Below, piece by piece: positions 10,280 through 11,019 of a DNA stretch of 51,599 nucleotides. The DNA is from Candidatus Doudnabacteria bacterium (GTDB lineage: Bacteria; Patescibacteriota; Doudnabacteria; UBA920). The stretch lies in assembly GCA_023245995.1 (NCBI GenBank), contig JAHFJH010000005.1, positions 1 through 51,599 on the forward strand, written 5' to 3'. The position numbers and the translations under genes were made by a program. Position 1 is the first letter of the stretch. Every line of letters begins with the position of its first letter. Under the pieces are notes generated by a model. That model had not been told where the DNA came from, did not search any database, and saw nothing but the letters and a program-made list of their open reading frames with translations.

Positions 10280-10378
10280 GCTATTGCGTGTTATTGTTTA
10301 GTTTTGCTATAATAAGACGGTCAATTTATACAAAATTGATGTGTTCGGGAGTAGCTCAGCGGTAGAGCAATCGGCTGT

Positions 10379-10931
10379 CAGGTACACAATTATCTGCAAA
10401 TTTATGGTAGATAAAAGAACCTACAAAGACCGCGCCACATATTTAATTAAGGCCGTGGCTAAAAGGCGTAAATCGCTTAAAGCTCAGGCGTTGGATTATA
10501 AAGGTGGCAAATGCGCTATATGTGGATACGATAAATGCTCTAGTGCTTTAGAGTTCCATCATATAGACCCAAAACAAAAAGATTTTGGCATAGGCGAGAA
10601 AGGCTATACAAGATCTTGGGAGAAGGTGAAGCATGAATTGGATAAATGCATACTCATTTGTTCAAACTGTCACCATGAAGTGCATGCGGGTCAAGTGCAG
10701 CTTCCTTCGGTAACGATGGAATGATAACGAGGTGAATTGACTGGAAGCCGTAATCTGCCAACTGGCGGAACGGTAATCAGCAGCCAAGCTTTGACGAAAG
10801 TCATTGAAGGTTCAGAGACTATCCCTTACGGGAGTACTTCTCTAACACATGTTAGAGCGGGAAGCGCCTCGCATCCTACTTGTTAGGATGATGATATAGT
10901 CCACCCCCAGTAGAAATACTAGGACAATGTG
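10379..10931 (+). mobile_element. group I intron (subgroup IA-like, P7.1 hairpin present) inserted between anticodon positions 35 and 36
   Basis: 5' exon ends in U and intron ends in G; Q-like AATCAGCAGCCAAGC (10775-10789), R-like TTCAGAGACTA (10811-10821), S-like GATATAGTCC (10893-10902); P7 GACTA/TAGTC; P8 CATCCTA/TAGGATG; P7.1 CTCTAAC/GTTAGAG. Confidence 0.9.
10404..10724 (+). CDS. HNH homing endonuclease (intron-encoded, 106 aa)
   Basis: CAICGYDKCSSALEFHHIDPKQKDFG...CILICSNCHHEVHAG; start ATG 10404 inside the intron. Confidence 0.85.
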   Translation: MVDKRTYKDRATYLIKAVAKRRKSLKAQALDYKGGKCAICGYDKCSSALEFHHIDPKQKDFGIGEKGYTRSWEKVKHELDKCILICSNCHHEVHAGQVQLPSVTME

Positions 10932-10974
10932 TAACCGATGGGTCCTGGGTTCGAATCCCAGCTCCCGAGCCAGC

Positions 10975-11006
10975 AAAAAACCACTAACCTGTTTGGTGGT
11001 TTTTTG
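10975..11006 (+). terminator. tRNA terminator
   Basis: AAAAAACCAC...GTGGTTTTTT directly after CCA. Confidence 0.85.
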
Positions 11007-11019
11007 TTATTATTAGCCT

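Follow-up and report, generated by a model that had tools for sequence, protein, structure and literature searches.

A putative mobile group I intron with an HNH endonuclease gene splits the anticodon of the only tRNA-Asn(GUU) gene found in a Patescibacteria genome

Introduction

In the genome of a Candidatus Doudnabacteria bacterium, the sole tRNA-Asn(GUU) gene found is, to judge from sequence comparison, very probably interrupted between U35 and U36 by a mobile group I intron that carries the gene of a tRNA-Asn-associated HNH nuclease. The gene lies in a stretch of 51,599 nucleotides, called the window here. If this reading is right, many Patescibacteria depend on a ribozyme to splice an essential tRNA that has only one gene, and a standard tRNA finder either misses this gene (ARAGORN with introns disallowed found 0 tRNA genes in the window) or misnames it as tRNA-Thr.

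The group I introns of the tRNA-Leu(UAA), tRNA-Ile(CAU) and tRNA-Arg genes of cyanobacteria, plastids and proteobacteria belong to subgroup IC3 and usually lack an ORF; the window's site, in contrast, is shared by two ribozyme types, A (79 introns) and B (14 introns). The tRNA-fMet intron of Synechocystis was reportedly described by Biniszkiewicz in 1994, and Bonocora and Shub are said to have described, in 2001, an endonuclease specific for the tRNA-fMet anticodon region, which belongs to another family than the HNH protein of the window. Like the window's intron, the tRNA-fMet intron lies in a bacterial tRNA anticodon loop, is patchily distributed and encodes an endonuclease aimed at the tRNA gene, but the tRNA and the phylum differ, and the ORF of the window is an HNH gene in L1 that overlaps the guide. 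This ORF-containing cyanobacterial intron is cited in PMC3984707 and PMC8450103.

For the candidate phyla radiation (CPR), group I introns in tRNA genes are mentioned in PMC8172020 and in a review (PMC9698310), whose passages on tRNAs name no site, mechanism or HNH gene. A survey of CPR rRNA group I introns, in which a LAGLIDADG enzyme was characterised (PMC11270868), deals with the same host group and the same kind of element, but with rRNA genes and LAGLIDADG, and its text contains neither "tRNA" nor "HNH". No description of the tRNA-Asn site or of the series of alleles reported below was found in the literature searched, with many subscription papers outside its scope. The site-specific lineage is thus new and the kind of element known, and the HNH–tRNA-Asn linkage spans phages and bacteria.

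Results

The genome bearing the window (949 kb in 54 contigs, 96.3% complete) belongs to the Patescibacteria. The tRNA-Asn 5' exon (10345–10378, plus strand) runs from U1 to U35, ends in C32-U33-G34-U35 and is identical to nt 1–34 of the intronless tRNA-Asn of relatives, and the 3' exon (10932–10972, plus strand) runs from U36 to G73 and includes an encoded CCA. The two halves are separated by exactly 553 nt. When the exons were joined, ARAGORN reported a complete tRNA-Asn(gtt), 75 nt long with its CCA, with a cloverleaf, the anticodon GUU, U1-A72 and G73. Over nt 1–75 this spliced tRNA is 100% identical to the intronless tRNA-Asn genes that three genomes from the same family as the window carry: G010, G012 (in two copies) and G021. 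These results bear out the earlier note, which had described two exact halves 553 nt apart and had claimed that excision of 10379–10931 restores tRNA-Asn(GUU).

The earlier note had also proposed checking whether the gene is the genome's only tRNA-Asn, and none of the other above-cut-off tRNAs among the 43 of the genome is a second one. The other 19 amino acids all have tRNAs, including a tRNA-Thr(TGT). A truncated tRNA at the end of contig C15 was considered as a second tRNA-Asn and rejected, its loop reading His by eye. Directly after the tRNA, folding predicts a terminator-like hairpin (10972–11008, plus strand; −18.3 kcal/mol, z −4.4); a scan for consensus promoters and terminators gave no match, missed this hairpin and established no promoter.

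The insert of 553 nt (10379–10931, plus strand) matches the Rfam group I model Intron_gpI (RF00028) at 10697–10923 with 71.7 bits (cut-off 50, E 1.1e-17), and the match covers the whole model. Together with covariation, this match identifies the conserved catalytic core, with P3, P4, P6, P7, P8 and P9. Intron_gpI is the only Rfam family above its cut-off in the window, and this is its only such match in the genome. The 5' exon ends in U10378 and the intron in G10931, the omega-G. The internal guide sequence GCAGCU (10697–10702, plus strand) pairs with the exon sequence GGCUGU to form a 6-bp P1, with a U10378·G10697 wobble at the 5' splice site.

Downstream of the guide, all on the plus strand, follow the P2 hairpin (10704–10719; compensatory change in 6/6 pairs), the 5' strand of P3 (10728–10732), the two strands of P7, GACUA (10817–10821) and UAGUC (10897–10901), which enclose the P8 hairpin (10872–10890), and the P9 hairpin (10906–10923; compensatory change in 6/7 pairs). 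P3 and P8 were placed by covariation analysis of relatives. The 5' strand of P7 does not vary in 22 relatives, so the support for this helix comes from the model match and not from covariation. The P7.1-type hairpin is real and is accompanied by a second hairpin, P7.2, with compensatory changes in both; lying between P7 and P3, the two may point, by the subgroup rule, to an IA2-like core in the window's type.

In the 22 introns of the window's type, the structure P2–P9 with P7.1 and P7.2 allows 94.3% of cells to pair, and compensatory change was seen at 37 of 55 pairs. None of 500 shuffles was as good, and slid structures dropped to 33–46% pairing, a control that is favourable by construction because the consensus structure was derived from the same 22 sequences, except for P7 and P9, which were placed by hand. 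In all 93 non-redundant related introns, the exon sequence just before the intron is CTGT and the last intron base is G, in a set for which the exon detector required [CT]TGT and TAA and only introns of at least 150 nt were kept. GCAG directly precedes P2 in the 88 related introns with a located core; since the guide search looked for GCAG, the independent support lies in its fixed place before the covarying P2 and in the minimal P1 loop, which is 5–11 nt long in several ORF-less introns. For P1 itself covariation is uninformative, CUGU being constant and GCAG having served to locate the guide.

The Rfam match, the splice-site rules, P1 and the covariation together agree with the earlier reading, a group I intron that splits the anticodon after U35. 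The covariance-model match proposed there as a check was found, its U and G at the two ends are U10378 and G10931, and its P7, P8 and P7.1-type hairpin are all present, P7.2 being an addition. P1 needs only C32-U33-G34-U35, which is constant in all tRNA-Asn intron hosts collected (the detector required nearly this motif), and this constancy might account for the fit of a single intron to many tRNA-Asn genes. No P10 pairing at the 3' exon was apparent by eye.

The HNH endonuclease gene (10404–10724, plus strand; 106 aa), noted earlier as an ORF inside the intron, lies in the P1 loop (L1), and its 3' end overlaps the guide and P2; relatives have it in the same position. The ORF matches PF01844 with 21.4 bits, exactly at the curated cut-off of 21.4, and phrog_2255 with 2.9e-31. 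It has an HNH motif with two CxxC zinc pairs, and C37, C40, H52, H53, C86, N88, C89 and H90 are invariant among relatives. L1 measures 5–80 nt in ORF-less introns versus 298–354 nt in HNH-bearing ones. The AlphaFold model has a pLDDT of 86, with 96 residues at 70 or above and low confidence in the tail coded over the guide, and Foldseek with this model returned weak matches to HNH nucleases only (E about 0.1). The start codon at 10404 lies in the loop of a predicted hairpin just past the 5' exon (10364–10428, z −2.0), and no Shine-Dalgarno sequence was seen by eye before it.

In the window's family, 22 genomes were looked at, of which 18 were resolvable at the site. The intron is present in 10 of them (G000, which is the window's genome, G004, G005, G008, G009, G011, G013, G017, G018 and G019) and absent from eight (G002, G006, G007, G010, G012, G015, G020 and G021). 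Presence is thus patchy, with empty alleles in close relatives, and the intronless alleles that the earlier note had proposed to look for exist within the family itself.

Beyond the family, an HNH profile matched 50 of 380 genomes of the phylum at E<=1e-8, and a scan of 84,980 species genomes gave 312 HNH relatives. Among the best 80 of these 312, 71 lie inside a tRNA-Asn intron at the same site (two were assigned by eye, and one of this pair is truncated), six stand 18–53 nt upstream of tRNA-Asn and three run into the end of a contig, so that 77 are in or beside tRNA-Asn. The hosts are mostly Patescibacteria; among the others are Omnitrophota and Elusimicrobia, both supported by long contigs (312 kb and 248 kb), as well as one Aerophobetes and one Bacteroidetes bin. 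The insertion had been called uncommon, a description that fails, given the site's occupancy in 10/18 resolvable family genomes and in many other Patescibacteria and the Asn linkage of these 77 of the best 80 HNH relatives. The suggestion of a possible new lineage does not hold as worded, the intron being a member of a large lineage, and survives in that this lineage is without a description in the literature searched.

Several allele states were found: introns with an intact HNH gene, with a decayed one (G023 and G090) and without an ORF. In the whole set, a free-standing HNH gene precedes an intronless tRNA-Asn in L189/G082, L192 and L216/G108, with a remnant in L089/G049, and in relatives, not in the window, it precedes a tRNA-Asn with an ORF-less intron (L084, L127, L145, L174, L187 and L215). 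A search beside the free-standing cellular HNH genes for an upstream copy of the tRNA 5' half, which would have been a sign of past movement, gave nothing beyond 9-nt matches.

Two further kinds of locus were seen at tRNA-Asn. In L139 (750–1343), the intron is truncated in its 3' portion and the 3' half of the anticodon is lost, a dead copy or an assembly error. In L098 (1180–1575; G015) and L099 (1501–1885, minus strand; G020), a small ORF, assigned by eye as GIY-YIG-like, precedes the intronless tRNA-Asn, and further upstream lie a second copy of the tRNA-Asn 5' half and a hairpin; a different endonuclease has apparently lodged at the same tRNA-Asn gene.

For the viral relatives, the best 80 HNH matches in IMG/VR were reduced to 65 without near-copies. 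Most of these stand free within arrays of tRNA genes, and tRNA genes occur in 59 of the 65 loci. Where a tRNA lies less than 400 nt upstream, the nearest one is tRNA-Asn in 22 of 42 loci, and where one lies less than 200 nt downstream, in 16 of 38; among the remaining tRNAs in these loci, only 12 of 368 are Asn (one-sided Fisher tests, 1e-16 upstream and 2e-11 downstream, with loci that are partly non-independent). In four loci (L229, L232, L235 and L237), tRNA-Asn lies close on both sides of the HNH gene. Free-standing endonucleases, SegB among them, have been described from the tRNA regions of phages (PMC13096335, PMC6409571). Such endonuclease genes sit within phage tRNA clusters and spread the region, a role that the viral HNH genes would share; the HNH family differs in its specific concentration beside tRNA-Asn. 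SegB is not known as an HNH enzyme. One locus filed as viral, L219 (IMGVR_UViG_3300001199_000352), carries a tRNA-Asn intron with an HNH gene that groups with those of Omnitrophota, and may be a bacterial contig.

Core motifs split the 93 introns into type A (79, including the window's, most with P7.1) and type B (14), two introns having been typed by eye. Both types occur with and without HNH, and identity between the HNH proteins of type-B and type-A hosts reaches 85% (L121/L175), which suggests that HNH gene and ribozyme have been re-paired. On the HNH tree, ribozyme type changes six times, against a mean of 8.7 and a lowest value of seven in 200 shuffles. The pattern is suggestive of types that cluster somewhat on the tree yet change several times; with 108 columns and many unresolved forks, the tree serves coarse use only and is too weak for counting re-pairing events.

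Discussion

We infer splicing and homing from these features as follows. After transcription the RNA would fold, with exon CUGU paired to guide GCAG in P1 and a U35·G wobble. An exogenous G would attack after U35, the freed U35 would attack after the omega-G, and the exons would be joined to give tRNA-Asn. Because no other tRNA-Asn was found in the genome, the cell should be unable to do without this splicing. The HNH gene in the P1 loop would be translated from unspliced RNA, and its protein would cut or nick intronless tRNA-Asn genes near the insertion site, a target suggested by the linkage of the HNH family to that gene, and repair would copy the intron in.

The intron perhaps acquired its HNH gene by capture of a free-standing one located next to tRNA-Asn. 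In collaborative homing, described from two phage systems (cyanophage psbA and a second one), the intron takes in a free-standing endonuclease whose target is already the site of that intron (PMC3984707). The tRNA-Asn series looks like this route in nature, with the differences that the gene is a cellular tRNA gene and that four states coexist, namely no element, free-standing HNH only, free-standing HNH with an ORF-less intron, and HNH inside the intron. We therefore advance, tentatively and at a little short of an even chance, that a tRNA-Asn-specific HNH family, free-standing in phage arrays and beside bacterial tRNA-Asn, was taken up by two different group I ribozyme types, in both into the P1 loop and at a single anticodon site, which would make this a natural collaborative-homing series with cross-phylum spread. 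A single gene shows empty, intron-only, endonuclease-only, side-by-side and fused states, so that, if the proposal is right, existing alleles would allow a test of the way in which introns come by their homing endonucleases.

The capture step, and that step only, has a strong competitor: the free-standing bacterial HNH genes could quite possibly be escapees from introns instead of their source, as they are scattered among intron-borne ones on the poorly resolved tree. All six introns next to a free-standing HNH gene, however, have a minimal P1 loop of 5–11 nt with no remnant length, and the phage homologues are free-standing, linked to tRNA-Asn and mostly placed outside the bacterial group.

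The intron might also splice by itself and carry an HNH protein that is a splicing helper or a decaying passenger; the broken copies (G023, G090) and the persistence of ORF-less introns allow a passenger role. We consider this unlikely, since the ORF-less relatives suggest that splicing does not need HNH, the active-site residues are invariant, and relatives stand beside tRNA-Asn without any intron in both bacteria and phages.

It is very improbable that the intron is a degenerate one in a dead tRNA gene, the working tRNA-Asn being absent from the assembly. An assembly of 54 contigs and about 96% completeness leaves room for such a loss, but the core, HNH frame, exons and terminator-like hairpin are all intact, tRNAs for the other 19 amino acids are present, and the exons are also intact in the intron-bearing family members.

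The gene could, finally, be read as tRNA-Thr(UGU), with both splice sites 2 nt upstream (after U33 and after G10929) and the loop CUUGUAA. ARAGORN prefers this reading once introns are allowed: it sets the junction 2 nt away and names the gene tRNA-Thr(tgt), since ATGTG|TAA at the end of the copy lets the splice sites shift by that distance; in the window's copy both shifted ends even obey the U and G rules. This reading has next to no probability. The genome already has a tRNA-Thr(TGT) and no other tRNA-Asn, and the intronless alleles of the family read GTT (GUU). The G at the shifted intron end is absent in 32 of the 93 non-redundant related introns, and U33 would face an A of the guide, whereas U35 faces the wobble G. 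The tRNAs of all 93 related introns have U1 and G73, which are Asn-like and unlike Thr. Together the relatives, the P1 pairing and U1/G73 settle the identity of the tRNA as Asn.

A tRNA intron of the archaeal or eukaryotic kind, short and excised by the tRNA endonuclease at a bulge-helix-bulge motif, is unlikely for an insert of 553 nt with a group I core in a bacterium.

Introns were also seen in other genes of the material collected. In G001, a member of the window's genus in which BLAST of the genome did not find tRNA-Asn, the 23S rRNA gene has two group I introns (L047). In relatives, genes for tRNA-Phe(GAA) and tRNA-Leu may likewise hold group I introns, as ARAGORN suggests for L053, L072, L064 and L075.
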